64,000 nucleotides of DNA from Blastochloris viridis (GTDB lineage: Bacteria; Pseudomonadota; Alphaproteobacteria; Rhizobiales; Xanthobacteraceae): positions 3,512,001 to 3,576,000 of the forward strand of contig NZ_CP012946.1 in NCBI RefSeq assembly GCF_001402875.1, written 5' to 3'. The translations under genes were made by a program, and so were the position numbers. This document shows, in pieces, positions 38,502 through 55,295 of this stretch (positions are counted from its first letter, which is position 1; each line of letters begins with the position of its first letter). The notes under the pieces are model-generated. The model saw only the letters and a program-made list of their open reading frames with translations, was not told the origin of the DNA and did no database searches.

Positions 38502-39434
38502 ATGGCGATCCTCGCGGCACTTCATCACGTCACCCATTACGTTTACGACCGTCCCGTTTCCCTCGGCCCGCAGTTGATCCGGTTGAGACCGGCGCCGCTC
38601 TGCCGCACCCGTATCCCGTCCTATTCGCTGAAGGTGGTGCCCGAGCGCCATTTCGTGAACTGGCAGCAGGATCCGTTCGGCAACTGGGTGGCGCGCTTCG
38701 TCTTCCCGGACATGACCACCGAGTTCGCGATCACCGTCGATCTCCTCGTCGAGCTGTCGACGGTCAACCCGTTCGACTTCTTTGTCGAGCCGTGGGCCGA
38801 TCGCTTCCCGTTCGCCTATCCGGCCGAGACCGCGCGCGATCTGGCGCCCTATCTCGAATGCGAGGCGGACGGCCACACCTTCGAGGCCTATCTCGCCGAG
38901 GTGGCGAACGGGCCGATCAACACCGTCGATTTCGTGGTCGACCTCAACGCCCGCCTGCAACGCGACATTGGCTACGTCATCCGGATGGAGCCGGGCGTGC
39001 AGACGCCCGACCAGACGCTGGAGCTCACAGCCGGCTCCTGCCGCGACACCGCCTGGCTGCTGGTTCAGCTGCTGCGCCGGCTCGGCCTCGCCGCCCGCTT
39101 CGTGTCGGGTTACCTCGTTCAGCTCCGGCCGGACCTGCAATCGCTCGACGGCCCGTCCGGCACCGATCACGACTTCGCCGCGCTCCACGCCTGGGCCGAG
39201 GTCTTTCTGCCCGGCGCCGGCTGGATCGGGCTCGACCCCACCTCCGGCCTGCTGTGCGGCGAGGGCCATATTCCGTTGTGTGCGACGCCGCACTACCGCT
39301 CGGCCGCGCCGATCTCCGGCACCGTCGGTCCCGCCGAGGCGTCGTTCGGCTTCGACATGAAGGTCACCCGCGTCGACGAGACGCCGGGCGTCCGGTTTCC
39401 CACCACCCTCGACCTCAGGCGGCCAACGCCGTGA
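38502..39434 (+). CDS. Transglutaminase-like protein, short form lacking DUF2126
   Basis: This 310-residue protein has a bacterial transglutaminase N-terminal domain (ALHHVTHYVYDRPVSLGPQLIRLRPAP) and a transglutaminase core. The catalytic triad is Cys in GSCRDTAWL, His in LHAWAEV and Asp in GLDPTSG. Relatives in other Rhizobiales run to about 1100 residues with a C-terminal DUF2126. Here the protein stops soon after FDMKVTRVDETPGVRF, so that half is missing. The next gene begins within its stop codon (GTGA), so the two are translationally coupled. Confidence 0.83.
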   Translation: MAILAALHHVTHYVYDRPVSLGPQLIRLRPAPLCRTRIPSYSLKVVPERHFVNWQQDPFGNWVARFVFPDMTTEFAITVDLLVELSTVNPFDFFVEPWADRFPFAYPAETARDLAPYLECEADGHTFEAYLAEVANGPINTVDFVVDLNARLQRDIGYVIRMEPGVQTPDQTLELTAGSCRDTAWLLVQLLRRLGLAARFVSGYLVQLRPDLQSLDGPSGTDHDFAALHAWAEVFLPGAGWIGLDPTSGLLCGEGHIPLCATPHYRSAAPISGTVGPAEASFGFDMKVTRVDETPGVRFPTTLDLRRPTP

Positions 39435-41941
39435 ACAGCGCGTCCAGCAGCCGGGTATCGTCCGACGCCGACCGCGACCGCGCGGCGCTGATCGAGGGCT
39501 ATCGGCCGCTGCCCGGCGTGCGCGACGAGATGATCGACGACGGCGGCGCCGTGCGCGAGCACTGGCGGCCGGTGCTCGACGGCCTTGCCGCGCTGGGGCC
39601 GGCCGAGCTCGGCCGCCGCTTCCAGACCGCCGACCGCTACCTCGCCGACTCCGGCGTGTTCTACCGGCTCTATGATGACGCCGCCGGGGTCGAGCGGCCG
39701 TGGCCGCTGTCGCACCTGCCGCTGGTGATCGACCCGGCGGAATGGCGCACGCTGGTGTCGGGCCTCACCCAGCGCGCCAGCCTGTTGGAGAAACTGCTCG
39801 CCGACATCTACGGCCCGGCCCGGCTGGTGGCCGAGGGCAGGCTGCCGGCCGCGGTGGTGACGGGCAGCCGCGAGTTCCTGCGCCCCTTGGTCGGCGCCCT
39901 GCCGGCCGGCACCGCGCCGGGCGAGGGCGCCGGCCTGTCGGTCTATGCCGCCGACATCGGCCGCGGCCCGGACGGCCGCTGGTGGGTGCTGGACGACCGC
40001 ACCCAGGCGCCATCCGGTGCCGGCTACGCGCTGGAAAACCGCATCACCATGGGGCGGGCGCTGCCGGAGCTGTTCGAGCGCCTGCAGGTGATGCGCCTCG
40101 CCGGCTTCTTCCAGTCGCTGCGCGCCGACCTGACCGCGCTGTGCCGCAATCCGGACGGCCGGGTGTGCCTGCTCTCGCCCGGCCCGCTCAACGAGACCTA
40201 TTTCGAACACGCCTACCTCGCCCGCTATCTCGGTTTCGTGCTGGTCGAGGGCGCCGACCTCACCGTGCGCGGCGATGCCGTCCACATCCGCACCATCGAG
40301 GGGCTGGAGCGCACCGACGTGCTGTGGCGCCGGCTCGATTCCGACTGGGCCGACCCGCTGGAGCTCAACCCGGCCTCGCGGCTCGGCGTGCCGGGCCTGG
40401 TGCAGGCGGTGCGCGCCGGCAACGTTACGCTCGCCAACGCGCTGGGCTCGGGCGTGCTGGAGACCCGCGCGCTGCTCAGCTTCGTGCCGGCGCTGGCGCG
40501 CCATCTCACCGGCGCCTCGCTCAAGATCCCGAACGTCGCCACCTGGTGGTGCGGCCAGCCGCTGGAGCGCGAGGCGGTGATCGCCGACCTCAGCGCCTTC
40601 GTCATCGCGCCGGCGTTCGAATACCCGCTGCCGCCGCCGCTGCACAACGGGCCGGTGGTCGCCGCCGACCTCGACGCCAAGGACCGCGCCGCCCTGGTCG
40701 ACATGATCCGCCAGCGCGGCGTCGACCTCGTCGCCCACGAGGCGGCCAAGCTCTCCACCACGCCGGTGTGGTGTGACGGCCGGCTGGAGCCGCGGCCGTT
40801 CGTGCTCAGGGTCTATCTCGCCCGCACCAAGGACGGCTGGACGGTGATGCCGGGCGGGCTGTGCCGCATCGCCGACCACGGCGACGCCCGCGCGGTGTCG
40901 ATGCAGCGCGGCGGCCGCGCCGCCGACGTCTGGGTTCCGTCCGAGGTGGCGGTGGCCCCGGTGTCGTTGCTGCCGGCGCCGGGCCACGTGCCGATCCGGC
41001 GCAATGTCGGGCCGCTGCCGAGCCGGGTCGCCGACAATCTGTTCTGGCTCGGCCGCTACATCGAGCGCGCCGAGGCAACGCTGCGCCTGACCCGGCTGCT
41101 CACCGCCCGCGCCGCCGAGCGCGAGCGCCGCGGTGCCGCCACCACCCGGCTGATCGAGGACCTGCTGCGGGTGTGGAAGGTGGTCGATACCCCGCCGGGC
41201 GCGATGGACCCGATCCGCCTTGCGGCGCGGGCGCTGAATCACCACGACACCGTGGGCTCGATCCTGACGCAGGCGTCGACGGCACGGCGGGCGGCCTCGG
41301 TCATCCGCGATCGCTTTTCGCCCGACGCCTGGCGGACGCTGACCGACCTTGAGTTCCTGCTGGCGCGAACGGTCGCGAGCGACGGCACCGGCGCCACCGT
41401 GCTGGCGCGCATCAACCAGGCGCTGCGCCTGACCGCCTCGTTCGCCGGCCTCGCCCAGGAGAACATGAACCAGCTCACCGGCTGGCGCTTCCTGGAGCTG
41501 GGGCGGCGCATCGAGCGCGCCCTCGTCACCTGTCGTTTCGCGCGCCAGTTCGGCCTCGCCACCGCGCCGGAGGAGGCGCTCGACGTTCTGCTCGATCTGG
41601 CCGACAGCCAGATCACCTACCGCATGCGCTACGTGATGGTGGCGGCGCGCGCGCCGGTGCTCGACACCGTGGTGCTCGACCCCTCCAACCCGCGCTCGGT
41701 GATGTTCCAGATCGAGCACATGCGCGAGCACATGGCGGTGCTCACCGCGCGGCTGGTGCAGGAGACCGCCTCGCCGCCCGAGCGGCGGCTGCTGCGGCTT
41801 GCCGCCGACGTCACCGCGCTCGACGCCGCCCACATCGGCGACCTCGACATGGTTCGGGCCGAACAGGCGCTGATGGCGCTGTCGGACGCGATTTCCGATC
41901 GCTGGTTCACCCATCGCGACCAGGCAGACCCGTCGTCATGA
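39431..41941 (+). CDS. Fused circularly permuted ATP-grasp / alpha-E protein
   Basis: This 836-residue protein combines two modules often encoded separately. The N-terminal part (about 1-480) is a circularly permuted ATP-grasp (DUF404/DUF407). It contains YAADIGRGPDGRWWVLDDRTQAPSGAGYALENR, LLSPGPLNETYFEHAYLARYLGF and a FVLRVYLARTKDGWTVMPGGLCRIA end. The C-terminal part (about 525-830) is the all-helical alpha-E domain (SRVADNLFWLGRYIERAEATLRL). Such proteins are predicted amidoligases making peptide-like modifications. Its GTG start overlaps the upstream stop and its own stop overlaps the next ATG. Confidence 0.85.
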   Translation: MNSASSSRVSSDADRDRAALIEGYRPLPGVRDEMIDDGGAVREHWRPVLDGLAALGPAELGRRFQTADRYLADSGVFYRLYDDAAGVERPWPLSHLPLVIDPAEWRTLVSGLTQRASLLEKLLADIYGPARLVAEGRLPAAVVTGSREFLRPLVGALPAGTAPGEGAGLSVYAADIGRGPDGRWWVLDDRTQAPSGAGYALENRITMGRALPELFERLQVMRLAGFFQSLRADLTALCRNPDGRVCLLSPGPLNETYFEHAYLARYLGFVLVEGADLTVRGDAVHIRTIEGLERTDVLWRRLDSDWADPLELNPASRLGVPGLVQAVRAGNVTLANALGSGVLETRALLSFVPALARHLTGASLKIPNVATWWCGQPLEREAVIADLSAFVIAPAFEYPLPPPLHNGPVVAADLDAKDRAALVDMIRQRGVDLVAHEAAKLSTTPVWCDGRLEPRPFVLRVYLARTKDGWTVMPGGLCRIADHGDARAVSMQRGGRAADVWVPSEVAVAPVSLLPAPGHVPIRRNVGPLPSRVADNLFWLGRYIERAEATLRLTRLLTARAAERERRGAATTRLIEDLLRVWKVVDTPPGAMDPIRLAARALNHHDTVGSILTQASTARRAASVIRDRFSPDAWRTLTDLEFLLARTVASDGTGATVLARINQALRLTASFAGLAQENMNQLTGWRFLELGRRIERALVTCRFARQFGLATAPEEALDVLLDLADSQITYRMRYVMVAARAPVLDTVVLDPSNPRSVMFQIEHMREHMAVLTARLVQETASPPERRLLRLAADVTALDAAHIGDLDMVRAEQALMALSDAISDRWFTHRDQADPSS

Positions 41942-42843
41942 TCTACGACGTGCGGCAGGTGACGACCTATCGCTATGCGGCACCGGTCGCCACCGCCAGC
42001 CACCTGCTGCGGCTGACGCCGGTCGACCGGCCCGGTCAGCGGGTGCTGTCGACGGTGCTCAATGTGGTGCCGGCGCCGGCCGAGCGCGCCGACATGCGCG
42101 ACTTCTTCGGCAACGGCCTCACCCGCATTGCGCTGCACACCCGTCACGACGCCCTGGTGCTGCGCACCCATGCGCGCATCGCCGTCGCGCCGCCGGCGAT
42201 CCCGGCGCCGGAGGCGACGTTGCCGTGGGAGACGGTGCGCGAGCTCGCCTGGGCCTCGGCCGACCTCACGCCGCACGCCCCCGCCCACCATCTGTTCGCC
42301 AGCCGGCGGGTGCCGATGGTGCCAAAGATCACCGCTTATGCCGCCGAGAGTTTCCCGCGCGGTCGGCCGATCGTGGCGGCCGGACTGGAGCTGGCGTGCC
42401 GGATCAAGGCCGATTTCGCCTACGCGCCCGGCGCCACCGACGTCACCACGCCGGCCGCGACCGCGTTCGCGCTGCGGCGCGGGGTGTGCCAGGACTTCAG
42501 CGAGATCATGATCGCTGGCCTGCGCGGGCTCGGCCTTGCCGCCGGCTATGTCAGCGGCTTTCTGCGCACCACGCCGCCGCCGGGCCAGCCGCGGCTGGAG
42601 GGCGCCGACGCCACCCACGCCTGGGTGTCGCTGTGGTGCGGCCCGGCGGTCGGCTGGGTCGGGCTCGACCCCACCAACGCCATGCTGGCCGGGCTCGACC
42701 ACATCGTGCTGGCGGTGGGGCGCGACTATGCCGATGCCGCGCCGGTCGATGGCGTCATCGTCGCCACCGGCGACCACGCGCTTACCGTCGCCGTCGACGT
42801 GGTGCCGGTGGCGGCCGACCCGTTCGGGCGCGTCAACGGCTGA
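41938..42843 (+). CDS. Transglutaminase-like protein (second)
   Basis: This 301-residue protein has a bacterial transglutaminase N-terminal beta domain (YDVRQVTTYRYAAPVATASHLLRLTP). The cysteine-protease-like core has Cys in RRGVCQDFSEIM, His in DATHAWVSL and Asp in GLDPTNA. It is the usual third partner of ATP-grasp/alpha-E genes and may act as a peptidase or amidase on the product of that ligase. The ATG overlaps the previous stop (ATGA). No Anbu-type proteasome subunit is seen nearby. Confidence 0.87.
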   Translation: MIYDVRQVTTYRYAAPVATASHLLRLTPVDRPGQRVLSTVLNVVPAPAERADMRDFFGNGLTRIALHTRHDALVLRTHARIAVAPPAIPAPEATLPWETVRELAWASADLTPHAPAHHLFASRRVPMVPKITAYAAESFPRGRPIVAAGLELACRIKADFAYAPGATDVTTPAATAFALRRGVCQDFSEIMIAGLRGLGLAAGYVSGFLRTTPPPGQPRLEGADATHAWVSLWCGPAVGWVGLDPTNAMLAGLDHIVLAVGRDYADAAPVDGVIVATGDHALTVAVDVVPVAADPFGRVNG

Positions 42844-42888: not shown

Positions 42889-43206
42889 CTATTCCGCCGC
42901 CAGCTTCATCAGCACGATGCCGGACACGATGAGCGCGGCCGCCAGCATCCGCAGCGCCGTCATCGGCTCGCCGAGGAACACGATGCCGACGGCGAAGGCG
43001 CCGGCCGCGCCGATCCCGGTCCACACCGCGTAGGCGGTGCCGAGCGGCAGCGCCTTCATCGCCACCGACAGCAGCATCAGGCTGCCGATCAGGCTCACCA
43101 CCGTGATCGCGGTCGGACCGGGCCGGGTGAACCCCTCCGACAGCTTCATCGAAAACGCAAAGACGATTTCGAGCAGGCCGGCGAGAAACAGCGCGAGCCA
43201 AGCCAT
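42889..43206 (-). CDS. sugE: SMR-family guanidinium exporter (SugE/Gdx type)
   Basis: This 105-residue, four-helix small multidrug-resistance protein has the conserved membrane Glu13 in AGLLEIVFAFSMK, KLSEGFTR after helix 1, and AYAVWTGIGAAGAFAVGIVFLGEP. SugE/Gdx members export guanidinium in exchange for protons as antiparallel dimers. It is the last gene of the riboswitch-led operon, 88 nt after the allophanate hydrolase, with a strong AAAGGAGG before the ATG. The context (guanidine carboxylase and ykkC riboswitch) supports guanidinium rather than general drug export. Confidence 0.88.
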   Translation of the reverse strand: MAWLALFLAGLLEIVFAFSMKLSEGFTRPGPTAITVVSLIGSLMLLSVAMKALPLGTAYAVWTGIGAAGAFAVGIVFLGEPMTALRMLAAALIVSGIVLMKLAAE

Positions 43207-43294
43207 GACGCCTCCTTTACCCCATCGCCCCGACCGGATTTGATTTCATCAGTTCTCGTCCGCACGACCGCGACCTGCTGTTGCGGAGAATTCT

Positions 43295-45079
43295 CTAAAG
43301 CGGTCGCTCGCCCGGCCGCGAGGCCAGCCAGCTCCGCCAGCCGCCAAAGCCGGTGATGTCGAGCGCGTCCGCCGTCGCCCGGCCCTCGCACAGGAAGCCC
43401 TTGACCTCGCTGCCGTCGGCCAGCGTCACCGTGCCGATGCAGAGCGGCGACGGCACCAGCGCGACGAAGCTGCCAAAGCCGGCCAAGTCCATCTCGTAGA
43501 CCTCGACCTCGATGCCGCCGGCTCCCGCGCCGTCGCACACCAGGCCGGGCTTGGCCGGCTGGGTGCCCTTCAATGCATAAAGGCTGTAGCCGGGCGCGGT
43601 GCGGGTGGTTGAAACGAGGCGCGCGTTGCGCTGGGTGAGCTGGCCGTGCAGCGGCTGGCCGGTGAGGTGCGCGCCGACCACGGCGAGCCGGACGCAATCG
43701 GCGGAGGTCTGGATGCGCGCAGGCGGCGTCGCGGCGAGCGCAACATCGCTCGCGCCGATGCAGGCGCCGGGCAGCGCGCGGTGGAGGGCGTCGGCCAGCA
43801 CCGCCAGCGCGCCGTCCTGAAACGCCCGCGCGACCAGCGTCACCCCGAACGGCAGGCCGTCCGGCCGGAAGCCGGCCGGGATGGCGATGGCGGCCAGATC
43901 CATCAGATTGACGAAATTGGTGTAGGTGCCGAGATTGCTGTTGAGCCGCACCGGGTCGGCCAGCACCTCGTCGATGCGATAGATCGTGGGTGCGGTGGGC
44001 AGCACCATGACGTCCATCTTCGCCCATTCGGCCTCGGCGGCGCGGACGAGCTCGGCGAGCCGGTATTGCGCCTTGAACGCATCGACGGCGGAATGGCCAC
44101 CGCCGCCGAGAATGATGTCGCGCACCACCTCGTTCACCGCCTCGGGCTGCTGCCGCGCGAAATCGCCGATCGCGGCGAGCCGCTCGGCCACCCACGGCCC
44201 GGCATAGAGCAGCGAGGCGGCGTCGCGGAACGGCTGAAAGTCGAACACGACCGCCTCGCCGCCCAGTGCCGTGAGCCGTTCGACGCTGGCCTTGAACAAC
44301 GCGGCGGCGGCATCGTCGCCGAAGAATTCGAGCGCCGCCGGCACGCCGAAGCGGACGCGCTCGGGCAGCGGCGCGGCCGGCTGCGGCCGGCGCGAGAACG
44401 CATCCTCTGCGTCATAGCTGGCGGCGGCCTCCAACACCGCGAGCGCGTCGGCCACCGTGCCGGCGAACACCGAGACGCAATCGAGACTGCGGCAGGCCGG
44501 CACCACGCCGCGCGTGCTGATAAGGCCGCGGGTCGGCTTCAGCCCCACCACGTTGTTGAACGCCGCCGGCACCCGGCCCGAGCCGGCGGTGTCGGTGCCG
44601 AGCGCGAACGCGACCAGCCCGGCGCCGACCGCGACGCCCGAGCCGGACGACGAGCCGCCGGAAATGTGGTCGGCACTGAACACCGACGCGCAGATGCCGT
44701 ACGGGCTGCGGGTGCCGACCAGCCCGGTGGCGAACTGGTCCATGTTGGTCTTGCCGATCAGGATCGCGCCGGCGGCCTGCAGCCGCTCCACCACGCCGGC
44801 CGACCGCCGAGGGGTATAGGCGAAGGCGGGGCAGGCCGCGGTGGTCGGCAAACCGGCGGCGTCGATATTGTCCTTCACCGCAAACGGAATGCCCCACAGC
44901 GGGCCGCGCGGCGCCGCGGCAAGCTGCGCCAGCGCCGCCGCTTTCGGCACCAGCGTGATCCACACCGGCCGCTCGCCGCGCGCGGCAATGCGGTCATAGA
45001 CCATATCGAGCACGGCTTCAGGCTTGAGCGTGCCGGTTTCATAGCCGTGCTTCAGAAAGGCGATGTCGAGCGACAGCAT
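43295..45079 (-). CDS. atzF: Allophanate hydrolase
   Basis: This 594-residue amidase-signature enzyme converts allophanate to ammonia and CO2. The Ser-cisSer-Lys triad is visible: Lys69 in FAVKDN, cis-Ser in GGSSSGSG (141-148) and the nucleophile Ser167 in [11 protein letters not shown] ~130-residue C-terminal allophanate-hydrolase domain ([24 protein letters not shown] type, ending in [10 protein letters not shown]) distinguishes it from general amidases. Its ATG shares a base with the carboxylase stop (TGATG). In this operon it completes guanidine degradation after carboxylation and deimination. Confidence 0.93.
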
Positions 45080-48000
45080 CAGCGCGCCTCCGCCGGCACC
45101 ACCACGGCCAGGGTCTGGCCCAGCGCCACCGCCCGCGCCTCCGCGCACCGCAGCTCCGCCACCACGCCGGAAATCGGCGCCGCCACGGTGATTTCCATCT
45201 TCATGCTCTCCACCACCACCAAGATGTCGCCGGCCTCGACGCTCTGGCCGGGCGTCACCGCGATCTTCCACACGCTGCCGGGCACCGGCGATGCCGCCGG
45301 AACGCCGCCGGGCGGCAGCGGATCGTCGCCGCCGTCATCGACGATATCCGGCAGTTCGGCGTCATAGCCGCTCTGTCCCGCGGCCTCCCAGCGGACGCGC
45401 TCCTGGTCGAACGCCTGCTGCTGGCGCCGCTTGACGGCGTCGATCCCGTCGCGGTTGTCGGCCAGGAAGCGGCGATAATCGGCGAGGCGGAAGGTGCCGT
45501 GCTCGATCTTGAGCCGTGCCTTGCCGCGCGGGAAATCGGCGCGGAAGGCGAGCAGCTCCGCCGCGCTGACCTCGACGAAGCGGATCTGGTCGAAGAAGCG
45601 CAGCAGCCACGGCTTGCCGGGCTCGAAGGCGTCGGTCGCCTTGAAGCTGTTCCACATCTGGCAGGTGCGGCCGACGAACTGATAGCCGCCCGGTCCCTCC
45701 ATGCCGTAGACGCACAGATAGGCGCCGCCGATCCCGACCGCGTTCTCCGGCGTCCAGGTGCGCGCCGGATTGTACTTGGTGGTGACGAGGCGGTGGCGCG
45801 GGTCGATCGGCGTCGCCACCGGCGCGCCGAGATAGACGTCGCCGAGGCCGAGTACCAGATAGCTCGCCTCGAACACGATGCGCTTGACGTCGTCGATGCT
45901 GGCAAGGCCGTTGATGCGGCGAATGAACTCGATATTGCTCGGACACCACGGCGCGTCCGCCCGCACCGACTGCATGTATTTGCGAATGGCGAGCTGGGTC
46001 GCCTCATCGTCCCACGACAGCGGCAGGTGAACGATGCGGGTCGGCACCTCGATGTCGCAGGTGGCGGGCAGCGACGCCTCGGTGCGGCGCAGGATCTCGA
46101 GCAGTTGGGGCAGCGGCAGCGCGCGGCTGTCGTAATGGATCTGCAGCGAGCGGATGCCCGGCGTCATCTCGACGATGCCGGCCGGCGACACCGCCTGGAG
46201 TGCCGTCATCAGCGCGTGGACACGGAACCTCAGCTCGAGATCGAGCACCAGCGGGCCGTATTCGACCAGCAGATATTTGTCGCCGGCGCGGCGGTAGACC
46301 ACACGCGGGCGCTCGTCCGCCGCCGCGATCTCGCCGACGACGGCGTCGTCCGGCCCGCAATCGGCCGCGAGCCAAAGCGGATCGAACGGCACCGGCGCGA
46401 AGCTGGCGATCTCGGCCTCCTGCCTCGCCTCCAGCGCCGCGGCCTCGGCCGGCGTCAGGCGGCAAAAGCGCACGCGGTCGCCCGGCCGGAGCTGGCCGAT
46501 CTTCCACAGCTCGGCCTTGACGATGGTGGCCGGGCAAACGAAGCCGCCGAGGCTCGGCCCGTCGGGCCCCAGGATCACCGGCATGTCGCCAGTGAAGTCG
46601 ATGGTGCCGATGGCATAGGCGTTGTCGTGGATATTGCTGGGGTGCAGGCCGGCCTCGCCGCCGTCGCTGCGCGCCCAGGTCGGCCGCGGGCCGATCAGGC
46701 GCACGCCGGTGCGGCTGGAGTTGTAGTGAACCTCCCACGACGCGGCGAACAACGTCGCGATGTCGTCCTCGGTGAAGAAGTCCGGCGCGCCGTGCGGGCC
46801 GTACAGCACGCCGATGTCCCAGTCGCGGGTGAGCGGCGGCACCAGCGACGCCGGCACCGCGCAGGGCGCGGTCTCGCTCGCATCGCCAAGATGCAGCACG
46901 TCGCCGGCCGTCAGCGCCCGGCCGGCCGGGCCGCCGAACCCGCCGAGCGTGAAGGTGGCCTTCGCGCCGAGATAATCCGGCACGTCGAGGCCGCCGCGCA
47001 CGGCGAGATAGGCCCGGCAGCCGGCGCCGGTGGCGGCGCCGAGCCGCAGCACCTGCCCGGCGCCGACCTCGACCGGGCGCAGCAATGGCAGCGCCACGCC
47101 GTCGAGCTGCGCATCCATGTCGGCGCCGGCAAGGCAGATCAGCGCGGGCGCGTTGAACCGCAGCGTCGGCCCGGACATGGTGATCTCGAGCGCGGCCGCG
47201 CCGGCGTCGTTGCCGACGGCACGGTTGGCGAGGCGGAACGACAGATGGTCCATCGGCCCGGACGGCGGCACGCCGACGTCCCAATAGCCGACGCGGCCGG
47301 GATAGTCCTGCACCGTGGTCTGGGTGCCGGCGGCGATCACCTCGATCGTTCGCGGCCGGAACGCAAACGCCGCGAGCGAGCGCGTCGTGATGTGGCCGCC
47401 GGCGAACTCATCGCCCGCCACCACCGCGCGCAGATAATCGAGATTGGTCTCGATGCCGCCCACCTCGGTCGCCGCCAGCGCGGCGCCGAGCCTTTCAACC
47501 GCGTCGTCACGGTCGGATCCGGTGACGATGATCTTGGCGATCATCGGGTCGTAGTAGGGCGACACCTCGATGCCGGGCTCGACCCAGGTTTCGATGCGGG
47601 CGCCGTCCGGCCAGCGCAGGTGGGTGAGCAGTCCGGACGACGGCCGGAACTCGCGCGCCGGATCCTCGGCGTAGAGCCGGACCTGGATCGCGGCGCCGCG
47701 CGCGGGCGGTACCGCGCCGAGCGGCAGCGGCTCGCCGGCGGCCTGGCGGATCATCCACTCGACGAGGTCGATGCCGGTCGCCTGCTCGGTGACGCCGTGC
47801 TCGACCTGGAGCCGGGTGTTGACTTCGAGGAAGTGGAACGCGCCGCTGTCAGTGTCGTAGAGAAACTCCACCGTGCCGGCATTGGCATAGTTCACCGTGC
47901 GGCCGAGCCGTTCGGCGGTGTCGAACAGCGCGCGGCGCAGCTCATCGCCGATGCCCGGCGCCGGGGTTTCTTCGATGACCTTCTGATTGCGGCGCTGGGC

Positions 48001-48687
48001 CGAGCAGTCGCGCTCGCCGAGCGCCACCACCTCGCCCTGGCCGTCGCCGAAGATCTGCACCTCGATGTGGCGGCCGCGCTCGACGAACTTTTCGACAAAC
48101 AGCCCGGCATTGTTGAAGTTGTTGCGGGCGAGGCGCTGGACGCGCTCGAACAGCGGTTCGAGCTCGTCCTCGCTGCGGCACAGCGTGAGGCCGATGCCGC
48201 CGCCGCCGGCGGTGCTCTTCAGCATCACCGGGTAGCCGATGCGGCCGGCCTCGGCCTTGGCGTGATCGACGTCGGCGAGAAGATCGGAGCCCGGCGCCAG
48301 CGGCACGCCCGCCGCCTGGGCGAGCTGGCGCGCGGTGTGCTTGAGGCCAAACGCCCGCATGTGCTCGGGCCGCGGGCCGATGAAGGCGATGCCGAGCGCG
48401 GCGCAGGCCTCGGCGAACTCGGGATTCTCCGACAGGAAGCCGTAGCCGGGGTGGATCGCCTGCGCCTTGGTGCGCAATGCGGCTTCGAGTATGACGTCCG
48501 CCCGCAGATAGCTCTGCGCGGCGGGCGCGGGGCCGATGCACACCGCCTCGTCGGCCGCCGCGACGTGCAGTGAATGGCGGTCGGCTTCCGAATAGACCGC
48601 GACGGAGGCAATGCCCATGCGCCGCAGCGTGCGGATGACGCGGCAGGCGATGGCGCCGCGATTGGCGATCAGAACCTTGGCAAACAT
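45079..48687 (-). CDS. Biotin-dependent urea/guanidine carboxylase
   Basis: This 1202-residue biotin enzyme of the urea-amidolyase carboxylase type has three parts. An ATP-grasp biotin carboxylase (about 1-450) shows [30 protein letters not shown] and [14 protein letters not shown]. The carboxyltransferase is made of KipA-like (about 455-780, [24 protein letters not shown]) and KipI-like (about 800-1040, [11 protein letters not shown]) halves. The C-terminal biotinyl domain carries the ESMKME motif (Lys near 1163). Enzymes of this family under ykkC control have been shown to prefer guanidine, forming carboxyguanidine. Guanidine is therefore the likely substrate, although urea cannot be excluded by eye. 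Confidence 0.9.
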
Positions 48688-48690
48688 GCG

Positions 48691-49338
48691 TCAGGCTCCC
48701 TCGCCCCAGATCAGCAGTTCGATCGGCGTCGGATTGTAGGCGTTGCAGGGATTGTTGAGCTGGGGGCAGTTGGAGATCAGCACCAGCAGGTCCATCGCCG
48801 CCACCATCTCGACGTACTTGCCCGGCCCCGACACACCGTCGGCGAAGGTGAGGCCGCCATCTTCGGTGATCGGCACATTCATGAAGAAGTTGATGTTGTG
48901 GCCGATGTCGCGCTTGGTCAGGCCGAAGTGGTCATGTTCGGCCAGCGCCAGCAGGTAGGAATCGCGGCAGGCGTGCATGGTCTTCTTTTCGAGCGCGTAG
49001 CGCACGGTGTTGGATTCCGTGGCGCAGGCGCCGCCCAGCGTGTCGTGGCGGCCGACTGTATCGGCGGTGATGGTCGCCATCACGTTGCCGTCGGTCGACA
49101 GCAGCTTGGAGCCGACGCCGAGATAGACATTGGCCTGGGCGCGGATGGTGTCGGTCGCCGAATAGCGCTCGAACGGATCTCCGGCGTTGTAGAACAGCGT
49201 GTCGGCGGCCTGGTTGCCGTCGACGTCGACGATGCGGAACGTCTGGCCGGTCTTGACCTCGTGCAGCCAGTAGTCGCCGGCGGGAACGACGGCGCGATGG
49301 AGCGCGGCGGCGACGGCCAGCGTGCTTTCCTTCAGCAT
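48691..49338 (-). CDS. DUF1989 protein, carboxyguanidine deiminase subunit (UAAP1 type)
   Basis: This 215-residue DUF1989 protein was formerly called urea carboxylase-associated protein 1. It shows [60 protein letters not shown] and [12 protein letters not shown], with conserved Cys/His/Asp residues that may hold zinc. In characterised guanidine operons the two DUF1989 proteins form the CgdAB carboxyguanidine deiminase, which yields allophanate. ATG 49338 follows GAGAGGG. The gene ends three bases before the carboxylase start and 13 nt after its partner. Confidence 0.88.
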
Positions 49339-49351
49339 GTTGCGGGCCCTC

Positions 49352-50068
49352 TCAGCCGAACAGGTGGTAAAGACGGTTGTTCTCAAGGCCCCGGCGGTTT
49401 TCCGGGCAGGCATTGAGGCAGACGTCGTCGTCCGTCATCGGCTGGGCACGGCGGAACTGATAGCGCACCGCCGCGCGCGGGTAGGCTGCCGCAGGGTTCA
49501 GCGGGTGCGGGCAGGTGTGCAGCAGCACCAGGGTGTCCATCTCGAAGCGGAGATCGACGTGATCGCCGGCGTTCGAGTTGGCGGCGTCGAACGTCATGGC
49601 GCCGTCGTCGGCGACCGCCACCTTCGAGAACCAGTTGACGTTGGCGGCGAGGTCGCGGCGGCCCAGACCGTATTTGCCGCCCTCGACCAGAAAGCTGTCG
49701 TGGCCGTTCAACTGCCAGTCGTTGCGGCAGGCCTGATAGGTCTTGGTGCCCCAGCGCGCCGCCACCATGGCGCGGGTGGTGTTGCCGCACACGGTGTCGT
49801 GCCAGCCGACGCTATCGGCGATGATCGAGCAGAACACCCGGCCCATGTCGGAGTAGAGGCAGTTGCCGCTCGTGAGCTTGAAGGTGTGCTGGCATTTCAG
49901 CGTGTCGGGCGCGTTGTAGCGCTCCAACAGGTTGGCGGGATTGTAGAACAGCATCCCGACATTGGCGCCGCCGTCACGGTCGATCAGGCGCAGAACGGTG
50001 CCGCGCCGGACGGTGAAGGACCAGTGGCTGCCGCCGGGCAGCACGTCCTCATACAGAAGTTCGGTCAT
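49352..50068 (-). CDS. DUF1989 protein, carboxyguanidine deiminase subunit (UAAP2 type)
   Basis: This 238-residue partner of the preceding DUF1989 protein is of the former urea carboxylase-associated protein 2 type. Family landmarks are [66 protein letters not shown] and [22 protein letters not shown]. Together the pair should convert carboxyguanidine to allophanate and ammonia. ATG 50068 is preceded by GGAGAG; the start overlaps the ATPase gene's last codons by about 20 nt. Confidence 0.88.
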
Positions 50069-50924
50069 GCGAATCTCTCCGCTTGCGCCGGGTCGTCCCG
50101 GCAAAATCGAAGAGCCTGGCCCAGGGTCGTCCCCGGGTGGCGCCCTCTTCGTCGACCGACGCTGCGAGGGCGGGCAGTTTTCCGACGATCTCGGCGCGTT
50201 CGGCCTTGTCGTCGAGCGGGAGGTCGAATTTCACCGTGGCACCATAGGCTTCCGGCGCCTGCGGGTCGTGCCGCACCTTGTCGAAGGCCAGCACCCGCGT
50301 TGCCAGCGAGAAGCCTTCCTTCAGGTCGTGGGTGACCATGAACACGGTCATGCGCTCGGCCCGCCACAGCTCGCGCACCAGCGCGTACATCTGGTTCTTG
50401 GTGCCGGGATCGAGCGCGCCGAACGGCTCGTCCATCAAGAGGATGCGCGGCTTGCGCACCAGCGCCTGGGCGATCGAGAGCCGCTGCTGCATGCCGCCGG
50501 ACAGCTCGCCTGGATATTTCGCCCGCGCCGCGCCGAGCCCGACGCGGTCGATGACGTCGGCGACCTCCTCCAGCGCCCGGCGCTTGCTGGCGCCGAACAG
50601 CCGCCCGGTCAGCGGCGCGCGGGCGAATTCGAGGCCCAGCACCACGTTCCCCTCCACGGTGAGATGGGGGAACACCGAATAGCGCTGGAACACCACGCCG
50701 CGGTCGGGCCGCGGCTCGCGCGGCAACGGCTTGCCGTCGACGGTGATGGCGCCGCGCGAGGGCTGCTCCATCGCCAGCAGCAGGCGGAGGAAGGTGGTCT
50801 TGCCGCAGCCCGACGGCCCGACCAGCGCGCAGAACTCGCCGGACGGAATGTCGAGATTGATGCGCTCCAGCACCACCTGGTCGCCGTACTGCATCCACAC
50901 ATCGCGTACCCGCACGGTGCTCAT
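50049..50924 (-). CDS. ABC transporter ATPase (NitT/TauT type)
   Basis: This 291-residue nucleotide-binding subunit has Walker A GPSGCGKTT, signature LSGGMQQR, Walker B ILLMDEPFGALD and H-loop VTHD. It resembles SsuB/TauB/NrtD transporters. A C-terminal extension of about 70 residues beyond the core (DLPLDDKAERAEIVGKLPAL...) is longer than in SsuB. The ATG overlaps the permease stop (ATGA). Within the riboswitch operon it probably drives uptake of guanidine or a guanidine-yielding nitrogen compound. Confidence 0.9.
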   Translation of the reverse strand: MSTVRVRDVWMQYGDQVVLERINLDIPSGEFCALVGPSGCGKTTFLRLLLAMEQPSRGAITVDGKPLPREPRPDRGVVFQRYSVFPHLTVEGNVVLGLEFARAPLTGRLFGASKRRALEEVADVIDRVGLGAARAKYPGELSGGMQQRLSIAQALVRKPRILLMDEPFGALDPGTKNQMYALVRELWRAERMTVFMVTHDLKEGFSLATRVLAFDKVRHDPQAPEAYGATVKFDLPLDDKAERAEIVGKLPALAASVDEEGATRGRPWARLFDFAGTTRRKRRDSHDRTSV

Positions 50925-51742
50925 GCCGCCCCCCGCGTCAGCCAGGGCGAGATGCGCCGGTTCAGCGTGCGCAAGCCCCAGTCCATCAGGAAGGCCAGCA
51001 GCGTGATCCAGGCGACGTAGGGCAGGATGACGTCCATGGCGAGATAACGCCGCACCAGGAAGATGCGGTAGCCCAACCCGTCCTGCGCGGCGATCGCCTC
51101 CGCCGAGATCAGGAACAGCCATGCCGGCCCGAGCGACAGCCGCAGCGCGTCGATCAACTTCGGCAGCATGGTCGGCAGCACCAGGCGGGTGACGATCTGC
51201 CAGGTCGAGGCGCCGAGCGTCTGCGCCTTGATGATCAGCTCGGCCGGAATTGCCTCGACCCGCATGGCGAGGTCGCGGACCAGGAACGGCGCGACGCCGA
51301 CGACGATCAGCACCACTTTCGACAGCTCGCCGAGGCCGAACGAGATGAACAGGATCGGCAGCAGCGCCATCGGCGGGATCAGCGAGACCACGGCGATGGA
51401 CGGCGCCAGCCCGGCCCGGATGAAGGGCACCAGGCCGCTGCCGATGCCGACGACGAGGCCGATGGCGGCGGACACCGCGAGGCCGTAGCCGAGGCGGCTG
51501 AGGCTCGCGGCGCTGTCCGCCCACAGCAGGATCTGCCCGGTGCGCTGATCAAAGCTGAAGGCGAGACGGCCGACGGTGTCGGCGATGGTGGAAAGCGCCG
51601 GCAGCAGCTTGTCGTTGGGGTTCTCGGCCAGCCGGAGGGTCGAAAACACCAGGTACAACGCCAGCACGGCGAGGAAGGGCAGCGCGCCCCAGAACAGTGC
51701 GCTGCCCCGGCCGGGGCGCCGGTTGATGATGCGAAGGCCCAT
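50921..51742 (-). CDS. ABC transporter permease (NitT/TauT type)
   Basis: This 273-residue inner-membrane permease is related to SsuC/TauC. It has six predicted helices and the EAA-like coupling loop AELIIKAQTLGASTWQIVTRLVLPTMLPKLIDALRLSLGPAWLFLISAE. CAGGAGAG precedes the ATG at 51742. It lies 112 nt downstream of the binding-protein gene and overlaps the ATPase gene. Confidence 0.9.
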   Translation of the reverse strand: MGLRIINRRPGRGSALFWGALPFLAVLALYLVFSTLRLAENPNDKLLPALSTIADTVGRLAFSFDQRTGQILLWADSAASLSRLGYGLAVSAAIGLVVGIGSGLVPFIRAGLAPSIAVVSLIPPMALLPILFISFGLGELSKVVLIVVGVAPFLVRDLAMRVEAIPAELIIKAQTLGASTWQIVTRLVLPTMLPKLIDALRLSLGPAWLFLISAEAIAAQDGLGYRIFLVRRYLAMDVILPYVAWITLLAFLMDWGLRTLNRRISPWLTRGAA

Positions 51743-51854
51743 GTCGTGAGCTCTCCTGAAGCAGAGCGTGTTTGCGACGGCATCGTCGTCGGACCTTGGC
51801 GTCCGAGCGAGGATGGTGGTTTCGCAACACCGGCGCCGCGGTTTGCGCCGCGGG

Positions 51855-52925
51855 TCAGAGCTTGCCGTCGGCGGCGAGCTTCATGGCGTCGGCGTCGAAG
51901 CGCAGCTTGACGTTCGCCTTGTCGCCGAGGAACTCGCCGCTGGGGACGGCGATGCCGACCGCATCCTTGGTCTTGGCGCCCTCGCCGAGCAGGCCGTGCT
52001 CGAACGAGAAGCTGCGCACCAGCTCCATGGTCTTCGCCAACTGCGGCGAGGTGACGAACTCGGCCGCCTCGGCGGGCTTGAAGAACATGCGGGTGGTGGC
52101 GAGCTGGGCCTTGTAGCCGGCCAGATCGGTGCCCGAGGCCTTCGCCATATGGGTCAGCATCGCCTCGTCGCCGGCCGCCATCTTCTCCATCATCTCGTAC
52201 CAGGCGCCGACCAGCGCCTTGCCGAGCGCGGGGTTGTCCTTCAGCGTTGCGGTGTTGACGACCATGAGGTCGATGATCTCGCCGGGGATGTTCGAGGAGT
52301 CGAACACCTTTGTCGCGCCCTTGACCGCGGCGACCTCGGCGAGCTGCGGGTTCCAGGTCACCACCGCGGTGGAGTCGGACGAGGAGGTGAACACCGAGAC
52401 GATGTCGGCGTCGGAGGTGTTGACGACGGCGACGTCCTTCTCCGTCAGCTTCACGCTGTCGAGCGCGCGCGCCAGCAGGTAGTGCGACACCGACAGCTCG
52501 ACCAGGTTGATCTTCTCGCCCTTGAGGTCGGCGACGCTCTTGCCGGTCTTCAGCACGATGCCGTCATTGCCGTTGGAGAAGTCGCCGACGATGAGCGCGG
52601 TGGAGTCGACGCCACCGGCGGCGGGAATGGTCAGCGCGTCCATGTTGGTCATGACGCAGCCGTCGAAGCCGCCGGCGGTGTACTGGTTGATGGACTCGAC
52701 GTAGTCGTTGATCTGCACGATCTCGACATTGATGCCGAACTTGTCGGCCCATTTCTTCATCAGGCCGGTATCGGCGGCGTAGCCCCACGGCATCCAGCCG
52801 GCATAGATCGACCAGGCGATCTTGAAGCTGGTCTTTTCGGCGGCGGCCGCGGGCGAACAGGCGATGGCGGTCGCAGCGGCCAGCCCCAGGACGAGGCCGC
52901 AAAGTCGCTTGAATGAGACGGTCAT
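51855..52925 (-). CDS. ABC transporter substrate-binding protein (NitT/TauT type)
   Basis: This 356-residue periplasmic binding protein has a Sec signal peptide (LCGLVLGLAAATAIACSPAAAA, then EKTSF). The body follows the SsuA/NMT1 pattern: FKIAWSIYAGWMPWGYAADTGLMKKWADKFGINVEIVQINDYVESINQYTAGGFDGCVMTNMDAL. It is the first gene after the guanidine-I riboswitch, so its ligand is probably guanidine or a close derivative; that is inferred from context. GAGGG, three to seven bases before ATG 52925, is the ribosome-binding site caught in the switch helix described for the leader. Confidence 0.9.
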   Translation of the reverse strand: MTVSFKRLCGLVLGLAAATAIACSPAAAAEKTSFKIAWSIYAGWMPWGYAADTGLMKKWADKFGINVEIVQINDYVESINQYTAGGFDGCVMTNMDALTIPAAGGVDSTALIVGDFSNGNDGIVLKTGKSVADLKGEKINLVELSVSHYLLARALDSVKLTEKDVAVVNTSDADIVSVFTSSSDSTAVVTWNPQLAEVAAVKGATKVFDSSNIPGEIIDLMVVNTATLKDNPALGKALVGAWYEMMEKMAAGDEAMLTHMAKASGTDLAGYKAQLATTRMFFKPAEAAEFVTSPQLAKTMELVRSFSFEHGLLGEGAKTKDAVGIAVPSGEFLGDKANVKLRFDADAMKLAADGKL

Positions 52926-53048
52926 TGAACCCTCGCGATTGGATCTCACGCATCGTTCGCGAGGAGATCCGAATCGGGAGGCCCATCGAGCGGGTGCACG
53001 GGCAGAGACCTCGCCTTGAGAATCCGAAGCTTCTCGCGGTGGATCTCC
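52926..53048 (-). promoter_or_regulatory. Riboswitch expression platform with mutually exclusive helices
   Basis: Strand 0 (GGAGATCC, 53041-53048) is the 3' side of aptamer P1. Strand 1 (GGATCTCC, 52963-52970) can pair with strand 0 or with strand 1' (GAGATCC, 52941-52947). Strand 2 (CCTCGCGA, 52957-52964) can pair with strand 2' (TCGCGAGG, 52931-52938), which contains the GAGG of the ribosome-binding site. Helices 1:1' and 2:2' cannot coexist. Predicted: without ligand 0:1 and 2:2' form and translation is off; with guanidine, 1:1' forms and it is on. Confidence 0.65.
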
Positions 53049-53140
53049 CGGGCTTTTATCCCGCCGTGGCTCCGCCCCTTGCGGGGCGGGAGTGCATCTC
53101 TCGGACCAGCGCCGCGGCAGCGGCCGGAACCCTAGATGCG
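53041..53140 (-). promoter_or_regulatory. Guanidine-I riboswitch (ykkC motif)
   Basis: The minus strand carries the conserved ykkC aptamer elements in order: CTAGGGTTCCG, CTGGTCCGAGAGA, an ACGG element, and GGGATAAAAGCCCGGGAGA. A P1 stem can form between GCATCT (53139-53134) and AGATCC at the 3' end. This aptamer binds guanidinium and turns on detoxification and degradation genes. It lies about 115 nt upstream of the binding-protein start and controls the whole operon down to sugE. Confidence 0.93.
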
Positions 53141-53340
53141 TTATGACGTCGTTAGAGCAGATTTCGTGCCAGAAAAAAACCCTGCCCGTATCGGGCTGCA
53201 CCCGGCGCGGCGCCGCCGCCGCGGGCAGTTTCCGGGCAGGGTGCGCACATTTTAGGCAGGTCGCCGCCGGTAGCGGTCACGCTTCGGTCCGCCGCCATCC
53301 AAAGACGCGGAGCCGGGCCCGGTTGGACCACGTTCTGACG

Positions 53341-53548: not shown

Positions 53549-53747
53549 GCGTTGAAAGGATCTCTCGGATAGATTATCAAAAAAGGAAATCTTCGGAGCA
53601 CTCTAACAAGTATGGCCGTGGAGTGCGCATTGGCAATGCCAATCCGGGTGTTGCTGGACCGAGTGCATGCCGGTTGAGCGAGCCTCGCTTCGGAGTGGGG
53701 CAGCGCGGTCGACCGCGCGGCAGTGGCGCAGCCCATGGACTGGCTCG

Positions 53748-55295
53748 ATGAACCTCCTGAGACACTCTGGCGGCCTACGCAAACGCATCGTAATCGTCGG
53801 CACCGGCGCAGGTGGCCTCGCAGCGGCGCTGGAACTGGCGGCAAGCGGTTTCGAGGTGATTGCGATCGAGCGTGACAGCGAGCCAGGTGGCAAGCTCAAG
53901 CCGGCCTCGGTCGGAGGGGTGGCCTTCGACGTCGGGCCGACCGTGTTCACCATGCGCTGGGTGTTCGAGGAGTTGTTCGCCGCGGTCGGCGAGGATCTGG
54001 CCGCCCACATCCCGATGCAGCCGGTGGAGATCCTGGCCCGCCACGCCTGGCCGGGGGGCGCGCGGCTCGATCTGTTTGCCGATCCCGCGCGCACAGCAGA
54101 GGCGATCGGCGATTTCGCCGGGGCCGCGGAGGCGCGGGCGTTCGAGCGCTTCCGCGCCGAAGCGCGGGCGATCTACCGATTGGTCGAGCAGCCCTTCATC
54201 CGGGCGGTTCACCCAAGCTCGCTGGCATTGATCCGCCGCCACGGCCTCGAAGGGCTGCGGATCAAGCCCTTCACCACGCTGTGGCGTGAGCTCGACCGCC
54301 GTTTCCGCGACACGCGCCTGCGCCAGATGTTCGGCCGCTACGCGACCTATTGCGGCTCGACGCCGTTCGCCGCGCCGGCAACCCTGATGCTGATCGCCCA
54401 TGTCGAGCAGCAGGGGGTGTGGCTGGTTGACGGTGGCATGCGCCGCATCGCCCAGGCGCTGGCGGCGCTGGCCAGCGCGCGGGGCGCCACATTCCGCTTT
54501 GGCGCACATGTCGATCGGCTGCTGGTCGAGGGCGGCCGGGTGGCCGGCGTCGTGCTCGCCAGCGGCGAGGTGGTGCCGGCGGCCGCGGTCATCGTCAATG
54601 GCGATGTTGCGGCGGTTGCCTCAGGCCTGTTTGGCCCGAAGCCGGCGCGGGTGGTGCCGCGCCGGCCGGTGGCCAAGCGATCCTTCTCGGCGATCACCTT
54701 TTCGATGCTCGCGGAATCTGACGGTTTCCCGCTGATCCGCCACAATTTCTTCTTTTCGCGCGACTATCGCGCCGAATTTGCCAACATTGTCGCCGGCCGG
54801 CTGCCCCGTGAGCCGACCGTCTATCTATGCGCGCAGGATCGGAACGACGATGGCCTCACCGGCGCAGGCCGACCCGATCAGGATCACCGCACGCCGGGCG
54901 GCCAAGCGCTCCCGCGAGAACGGCTGTTCCACCAGCTCAATGTGGTGGCACGCGGCGACGAGCAGACGCTTACACCGGCCGAGATTGAAGACTACGCGAA
55001 GCGCACGTTTTCGCTCCTTGGCTCGTGTGGCCTGATGGTGAAATGGCACACCGAAGAGATGGTCGTGTCGACGCCAGCCGACTTTCATCGCAGGTTTCCG
55101 GCAACCGGCGGAGCGCTTTATGGCCAAGCGACGCATGGCTGGCGGGCGCCGTTCCAGCGTCCCAGCGTACGAACCACGCTGCCCGGCCTTTATCTGGCGG
55201 GGGGCTCAACCCACCCCGGCGCGGGCGTGCCGATGGCGACCCTGTCAGGCCGCATGGCGGCGGCCTGCCTCATTGCAGACATCACCAGCGCATGA
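53748..55295 (+). CDS. crtD: Carotenoid 3,4-desaturase CrtD-like
   Basis: This 515-residue FAD-dependent desaturase of the CrtI/CrtD family likely introduces the C3,4 double bond into hydroxylated or methoxylated acyclic carotenoids (spheroidene/spirilloxanthin routes). FAD binding is seen in IVIVGTGAGGLAAALELAASGFEVIAIERD. The C-terminal LYLAGGSTHPGAGVPMATLSGRMAAACL favours CrtD, because CrtI usually ends GAGTHPGAGIPGV. It is alone, away from any photosynthesis cluster visible here, and next to IS debris. ATG 53748 gives the standard N-terminus. Confidence 0.82.
   Translation: MNLLRHSGGLRKRIVIVGTGAGGLAAALELAASGFEVIAIERDSEPGGKLKPASVGGVAFDVGPTVFTMRWVFEELFAAVGEDLAAHIPMQPVEILARHAWPGGARLDLFADPARTAEAIGDFAGAAEARAFERFRAEARAIYRLVEQPFIRAVHPSSLALIRRHGLEGLRIKPFTTLWRELDRRFRDTRLRQMFGRYATYCGSTPFAAPATLMLIAHVEQQGVWLVDGGMRRIAQALAALASARGATFRFGAHVDRLLVEGGRVAGVVLASGEVVPAAAVIVNGDVAAVASGLFGPKPARVVPRRPVAKRSFSAITFSMLAESDGFPLIRHNFFFSRDYRAEFANIVAGRLPREPTVYLCAQDRNDDGLTGAGRPDQDHRTPGGQALPRERLFHQLNVVARGDEQTLTPAEIEDYAKRTFSLLGSCGLMVKWHTEEMVVSTPADFHRRFPATGGALYGQATHGWRAPFQRPSVRTTLPGLYLAGGSTHPGAGVPMATLSGRMAAACLIADITSA

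Follow-up and report, generated by a model that had tools for sequence, protein, structure and literature searches.

Known guanidine operons and the Blastochloris locus

Operons for guanidine import and degradation under two riboswitches have been published for Vreelandella boliviensis and for enterobacteria (PMC12508155, PMC12186494). By a published description, a riboswitch belongs to the untranslated region immediately before the gene that it controls (PMC7266159). In contrast, the riboswitch reported here, a guanidine-II (mini-ykkC) aptamer, is embedded in the end of the coding sequence of another gene. It lies in a window of 64,000 nucleotides (nt) from Blastochloris viridis (contig NZ_CP012946.1, positions 3,512,001 to 3,576,000), in an operon of eight minus-strand genes 3' of a guanidine-I (ykkC) aptamer, which cover guanidine import, carboxylation, deimination, allophanate hydrolysis and export by a small multidrug resistance (SMR) protein (Table 1). 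Blastochloris is a phototroph, a purple photosynthetic bacterium, which fits the probable phototroph that an earlier note on this DNA had proposed. Neither the pathway nor an operon containing an internal guanidine-II aptamer is new to the literature, and the operon itself belongs to a known kind; the open-access literature searched yielded no account of a guanidine-II aptamer lying within the coding sequence of an upstream gene.

The guanidine-II aptamer within the ATPase gene

The guanidine-II aptamer is the sole RF01068 match in the genome and scores above the gathering threshold; it has two hairpins, with ACGA loops in both P1 and P2 (motif ACGR). The aptamer is wholly within the 3' coding end of the ATP-binding cassette (ABC) ATPase gene, 19 nt before the start of UAAP1. 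The ATPase stop codon is at 50051-50049 and the UAAP1 start at 50068, an overlap of 20 nt. The earlier note had counted this junction among overlaps of a few bases, and had described one ykkC aptamer for the whole operon; guanidine-I is indeed alone in its class here, whereas the internal guanidine-II aptamer was missed.

The nearest homologue of the ATPase in the protein database is also 291 amino acids (aa) long, and the next eleven among the matches listed have 249-278 aa. The frame in a Magnetospirillum metagenome-assembled genome (L047) reads GAG GAT TAG where Blastochloris has GAA GAG GGC, a difference suggestive of the loss of an ancestral stop ahead of the aptamer.

In a published guanidine-II model, the linker between the hairpins pairs with the ribosome site (PMC9094411). 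Fold predictions for the Blastochloris RNA gave this helix, which encloses P2 and joins the linker to the Shine-Dalgarno stretch of UAAP1, five of its positions pairing with a probability of 0.94-1.0 and the sixth with 0.51. The linker is accordingly predicted, by this fold model, to mask the UAAP1 ribosome site.

Distribution of nested aptamers

UAAP1 was above the cut-off in 11 genomes (B. viridis included). Ten of these have a guanidine-II aptamer before UAAP1, and the same ten have a guanidine-I aptamer; relative to the ATPase gene, eight of the guanidine-II loci are nested, one is partial and in one the ATPase frame ends ahead of the aptamer. In the class sample, guanidine-II was found in 32 of 385 genomes; of the 33 hits, all but three were examined for context, and the ATPase is directly upstream in seven of the 29 loci examined from other genomes; all seven are nested. 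The order sample gave 95 hits in 92 of 397 genomes. Among the 24 hits after an ATPase gene, 14 are nested, two are partial and eight come after the ATPase stop; the other hits are before SugE (49), before UAAP1 without an ATPase match (one) or without any query gene (21). The distinct total is 26 nested genomes (8 + 7 + 11, the last being the 14 of the order sample minus three already counted). At most other loci examined, the ATPase stop is just before the aptamer.

The 80 named loci nearest by UAAP1 sequence were also collected, and 79 were scanned. A set of 33 ATPase-UAAP1 rows was picked by hand from 71 guanidine-II matches; L079 and L085, which might qualify, were left out. An antisense guanidine-II match in L136 was removed by a stricter E-value before pair counting, and L138 has no ATPase match.

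Homologues of the Azorhizobium ATPase (7887 proteins at 1e-60) include Xanthobacter, Rhizobium leguminosarum and Agrobacterium vitis proteins that carry a double [RQ]D[DG][PL] tail, which is present in 105 of the best 120. A search with the Blastochloris ATPase revealed a two-loop tail in one of the best 120 by the patterns used. The tails were seen as protein only in the homologue listing, and in DNA at the relative, class-sample and order-sample loci. In Rhizobium, Xanthobacter, Azorhizobium and other genera, the C-terminal tails of ABC ATPases resemble translated riboswitches, and riboswitch counts made from intergenic DNA alone might be too low.

Separately, two adjacent guanidine-II matches, with extra hairpins, are found before UAAP1 in L052 (4863-4968), L055, L058, L059 and L063. 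Several of these double loci are from Azospirillum, and a weak second match occurs in Magnetospirillum UT-4 (L057:4966-5029).

Selection on the RNA

A run of 77 nt (50150-50074) is invariant across three Blastochloris genomes, the second longest such run in the 10.5 kb aligned. Elsewhere in the ATPase gene, none of 734 windows of 51 nt is invariant in this three-way alignment. The ATPase third codon positions vary at 73 of 262 sites before the aptamer versus none of 17 inside it. In 13 nested aptamers (one from Blastochloris), pairing holds in 91.7% of cells. Their covariation score of 0.250 compares with 0.109 for shuffled alignments and was reached by none of 500 shuffles, with relatedness not removed.

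The codon phases of the two loops fall into three sets among the 15 nested rows: 2,2 (ten rows), 0,1 (the three rows from Blastochloris) and 1,0 (two rows); in the order sample, the phases are 2,2 in 12 of 14 and 0,1 in two Blastochloris. Different peptides are therefore made from the same RNA. Where the phase is 2,2 (21 nested loci), the Asp codons of the motif are GAC in 79 of 79 cases; in the rest of the frames, taken stop to stop and so possibly including bases upstream of the start, 214 of 452 are GAC and 238 are GAT. The motif Arg is always CGG (38/38) and the motif Pro always CCG (33/33). Among 138 distinct ten-residue tail pieces, those with Gln have Leu in 9 of 14 cases, whereas those with Arg have Pro in 111 of 124 and Leu in 13 of 124 (Fisher p 1.6e-5, relatedness not removed); this association fits A-U and G-C pairs. 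Judged from these sequence patterns, it is the RNA itself, not the peptide, that is under selection at nested guanidine-II aptamers.

Operon genes and carboxylase specificity

The features of the locus are listed in Table 1. Profile matches recovered all eight minus-strand genes with the families assigned in the earlier note; the alternative frame 50898-50065 gave no Pfam or NCBIfam family match.

Table 1. Features of the guanidine operon of B. viridis (positions in the window)
Feature	Position	Strand	Basis
Sigma-54 type -24/-12 element TGGCACGAAATCTGCT	53156..53171	-	10 of 11; ends 9 nt before aptamer
Guanidine-I (ykkC) riboswitch aptamer	53043..53146	-	RF00442, 85.8 bits versus gathering 63, E 6.4e-14
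ABC substrate-binding protein	51855..52925	-	TIGR03427, 540.6 bits versus cut-off 333.9
ABC permease	50921..51742	-	BPD_transp_1, 71 bits
ABC ATPase, 291 aa	50049..50924	-	PF00005, 118.1 bits
Guanidine-II (mini-ykkC) aptamer	50088..50138	-	RF01068, 42.8 bits versus gathering 32
Anti-Shine-Dalgarno stretch (predicted), linker between P1 and P2	50109..50114	-	pairs with 50080-50075
Shine-Dalgarno stretch of UAAP1	50075..50080	-	sequence position and fold
DUF1989 protein UAAP1	49352..50068	-	TIGR03425, 339.8 bits versus cut-off 205.95, scored on the longer frame 50104-49352
DUF1989 protein UAAP2	48691..49338	-	TIGR03424, 329.5 bits versus cut-off 284.7, scored on the longer frame 49413-48691; start 49338 chosen
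Guanidine carboxylase (annotated urea carboxylase), Asp697	45079..48687	-	TIGR02712, 1859 bits
Allophanate hydrolase	43295..45082	-	PRK08186, 827.4 bits; TIGR02713, 793.2 bits
SMR exporter, SugE/Gdx type	42889..43206	-	SugE model best; 6wk5 closest solved SMR

The binding protein is probably a component of a guanidine importer, and UAAP1 and UAAP2 are probably the subunits of a carboxyguanidine deiminase, as which UAAP1/2 were reportedly identified by Schneider in 2020 (by the title, as cited in PMC12508155). The SMR protein scored 108.7 bits against the SugE equivalog model, under the cut-off of 126. Compared with solved SMR proteins, it gave 100 bits with 6wk5 (Gdx-Clo) and 45.1 with EmrE.

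The permease/ATPase and carboxylase/hydrolase junctions each overlap by 4 nt, and gaps of 13 nt (UAAP1/UAAP2, with the second start taken as 49338) and 3 nt (UAAP2/carboxylase) separate the next genes; these four junctions agree with the earlier description. Longer gaps follow the binding protein (112 nt before the permease) and the hydrolase (88 nt before SugE). A single transcript probably carries all eight genes, SugE after the 88-nt gap included. SugE at the operon end had a tblastn match in the three Blastochloris genomes only; many fetched loci end before that point. Just past the operon end, on the plus strand (38792-42843), are a circularly permuted ATP-grasp/Alpha-E protein and then a transglutaminase-like protein.

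The carboxylase has the urea-carboxylase domain order, and Asp697 aligns with Asn1330 of the K. lactis urea amidolyase, presumably the site meant by the published rule for the specificity of these enzymes. According to that rule, guanidine carboxylases carry Asp and urea carboxylases Asn (PMC12186494). The site is covered by 81 tblastn alignments, B. viridis included, and every one has Asp there. On sequence grounds, the locus belongs to the known carboxylase type of guanidine-assimilation operon, and the enzyme is predicted to prefer guanidine over urea. The pathway assigned in the earlier note holds, given these residues and the UAAP1 and UAAP2 matches. Such operons are common. Besides the published cases, importer and enzyme genes are also found in Magnetospirillum and Hyphomicrobium loci, and enzyme genes in Azospirillum loci.

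A different layout was observed in Pseudolabrys (L035/L069), where UAAP1 is between two UAAP2-like genes beside an ABC ATPase. The scans gave no guanidine-II match for L006 and L035, and L035 likewise lacks a guanidine-I match. This arrangement is perhaps a different use of DUF1989 proteins.

Guanidine-I aptamer and the upstream promoter-like element

The Rfam scan of the whole window revealed guanidine-I, guanidine-II and two tRNAs. The guanidine-I aptamer, which had been proposed at 53041-53140, was recovered by the covariance model at nearly the same place and is the sole RF00442 match in the genome. No intrinsic terminator was found between this aptamer and the first gene, so control is probably translational or by Rho; the ribosome site of the first gene is predicted to be paired in the fold model.

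The earlier note had named guanidine-I as the riboswitch of the operon; an internal guanidine-II aptamer and a sigma-54 type element are also present. The sigma-54 consensus is TGGCAC-N5-TTGCW, with GG and GC ten bases apart and about 12 nt before the transcript start. The element follows this consensus, and its position is kept in relatives. In 47 of 77 loci, the 70 nt before guanidine-I contain an element with a score of at least 9 of 11, which 0.7% of 3850 random stretches attain; the loci were selected by their similarity in UAAP1 and cannot be treated as independent. The 77 loci derive from 78 guanidine-I matches: the truncated L107 was dropped, and L066, which ends 7 nt upstream, was kept as a miss. 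Counted from the GC of the element, the distance to the aptamer is 5-13 nt in 42 of the 47 loci and 46-55 nt in five. Eight further loci were held out, six of them with guanidine-I, and four of these six have an element with a score of 10 or 11 at 10-14 nt. Both rpoN and ntrC are in the genome. A conserved sigma-54 element would link guanidine use to nitrogen limitation; no report of sigma-54 control of this operon was found in the open-access literature searched.

Directly before the element is a GC-rich inverted repeat with a T run (53176-53243, minus strand), which resembles an intrinsic terminator placed in front of the promoter. The neighbouring gene beyond it, for an amine-oxidase-like protein (53667-55295), is on the plus strand, despite the minus-strand orientation of this terminator-like repeat.

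Proposed regulation and alternative explanations

Both aptamers, the nesting, the conservation at the RNA level and the conserved promoter-like element are observed features of the locus. Together they make it probable that this is a guanidine-assimilation operon with three stacked controls, in which promoter use, ligand response, switching and coupling would be as follows. The sigma-54 promoter would start the transcript at the first bases of the guanidine-I aptamer, probably when nitrogen is short. The guanidine-I aptamer would gate the transporter genes, probably at translation or by Rho, and the guanidine-II aptamer would gate the enzyme genes. Without guanidine, the linker of guanidine-II would hide the UAAP1 ribosome site; with guanidine, the two hairpins would engage and the site would be freed. 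The Blastochloris ATPase apparently lost an earlier stop, so that it now ends 20 nt into UAAP1 and guanidine-II has become part of its coding sequence. One stretch of RNA would then act as C-terminal ATPase codons, aptamer and ribosome-site mask, and a ribosome finishing the ATPase would have to unfold the aptamer as it crosses aptamer, mask and ribosome site. Tentatively, the nested guanidine-II aptamer might be a switch dependent on ribosome traffic, by which enzyme output reads both importer translation and guanidine, and which evolved repeatedly in Alphaproteobacteria, unseen by searches of intergenic DNA only; this is possible rather than likely. The nested aptamer makes ribosome passage versus ligand sensing on one RNA testable.

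Several results weigh against this scheme. The linker pairing of Blastochloris is matched by 32% of shuffled linkers, and when the linker is blocked in the model the ribosome site stays partly paired. Only one of 13 nested loci, not Blastochloris, has a linker pairing that beats 95% of shuffled linkers; as a general trait of nested loci the pairing was rejected, with 12 of 13 not above shuffled linkers at the 5% level. Among the five covariation measures, two lie within the range of the shuffles: that for pairs altered on both sides (reached by 23 of 500) and that for additional pair types (61 of 500). By the model's boundaries, none of the 23 named loci among the 33 rows is nested, two are partial and 21 follow the end of the ATPase frame, although L056 and L057, with split or ill-placed matches, could be classed otherwise. 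Concerning the promoter, TGGCACN5YTGCW has eight exact matches in the genome and the reversed pattern has 21; the pattern is no commoner than its reverse, so the case for sigma-54 rests on position and conservation. No element was found near the aptamer in two of the six held-out loci, in most gammaproteobacterial loci and in some alphaproteobacterial ones. A candidate NtrC site upstream of the element was rejected: in the 40 loci tried, of 42 with an element near the aptamer, 12 had matches of at least 8 of 10, a weak excess over the 11% of shuffles.

The RF01068 match could in principle be a peptide-coding repeat (RDDP...RDDP) and not an RNA switch, as the double tail in most of the best Azorhizobium ATPase homologues (105 of 120, out of 7887) might suggest. 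This is scarcely credible and already contradicted: in the three Blastochloris and in two further genomes the same RNA is translated in different frames, the 42 motifs (21 loci) contain no synonymous alternative, Leu accompanies Gln as expected of an A-U pair, and the aptamer is intergenic elsewhere. The nesting itself might be accidental, with a neutral loss of stops letting the ATPase frame drift through an intergenic riboswitch that works as elsewhere. In 30 aptamers, 83 of 90 frames are open; stops are rare whichever frame is read, and the loss of a stop may have led to nesting without selection. The differing frame solutions also suggest that no peptide was selected, and in 8 of the 24 order-sample cases the ATPase ends upstream of the aptamer. 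Set against this are the 14 of 24 cases beside an ATPase that are nested, and the position of the ATPase stop, which falls from 14 nt before to 20 nt inside the likely start of the next gene (15 nested rows), as expected under selected coupling. Accidental nesting is a serious possibility, if short of an even one; it overlaps the stacked-control scheme in all but the coupling, and the chances given to the two are not shares of one total.

The internal aptamer might also be a relic, if ribosomes on the ATPase always unmask the UAAP1 start and the deiminase genes follow guanidine-I alone. The 20-nt overlap of ATPase stop and UAAP1 start is indeed a coupled arrangement; however, the invariance in three genomes, the codon locking and the covariation point to continued selection on the RNA, which makes a relic improbable. 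More improbable still is that the operon serves urea or a guanidine derivative and not guanidine. The NCBIfam names are urea-based, and the guanidine-II switch of V. boliviensis also binds methylguanidine (PMC12508155); the guanidine-I aptamer and the Asp common to all 81 alignments argue for guanidine. The scheme of three stacked controls is the preferred explanation of the locus.

Comparison with known systems

The guanidine-II aptamer of E. coli sugE also has two ACGR hairpins, and its linker contains a putative anti-Shine-Dalgarno stretch; the accessible text does not describe it within an upstream coding sequence, unlike the aptamer here (PMC9094411). In the operons of Raoultella, Erwinia and Klebsiella, guanidine-I is before the importer and deiminase genes, as in Blastochloris; whereas guanidine-II is before the carboxylase and hydrolase genes, a different position, and the accessible text mentions no coding overlap, unlike here (PMC12186494). 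The Synechocystis and Nitrospira operons also use guanidine under riboswitch control, but with a nickel guanidinase in place of the ATP-driven carboxylase (PMC12186494). The operon of V. boliviensis is similar in having guanidine-I first, an internal guanidine-II, an ABC importer, cgdA/B, gca and the allophanate hydrolase (PMC12508155). It differs in two respects: the Blastochloris operon has a terminal SugE, with mgdH and mgdL not among its eight genes, and its guanidine-II aptamer lies within the coding part of the ATPase gene, ahead of the first deiminase gene.

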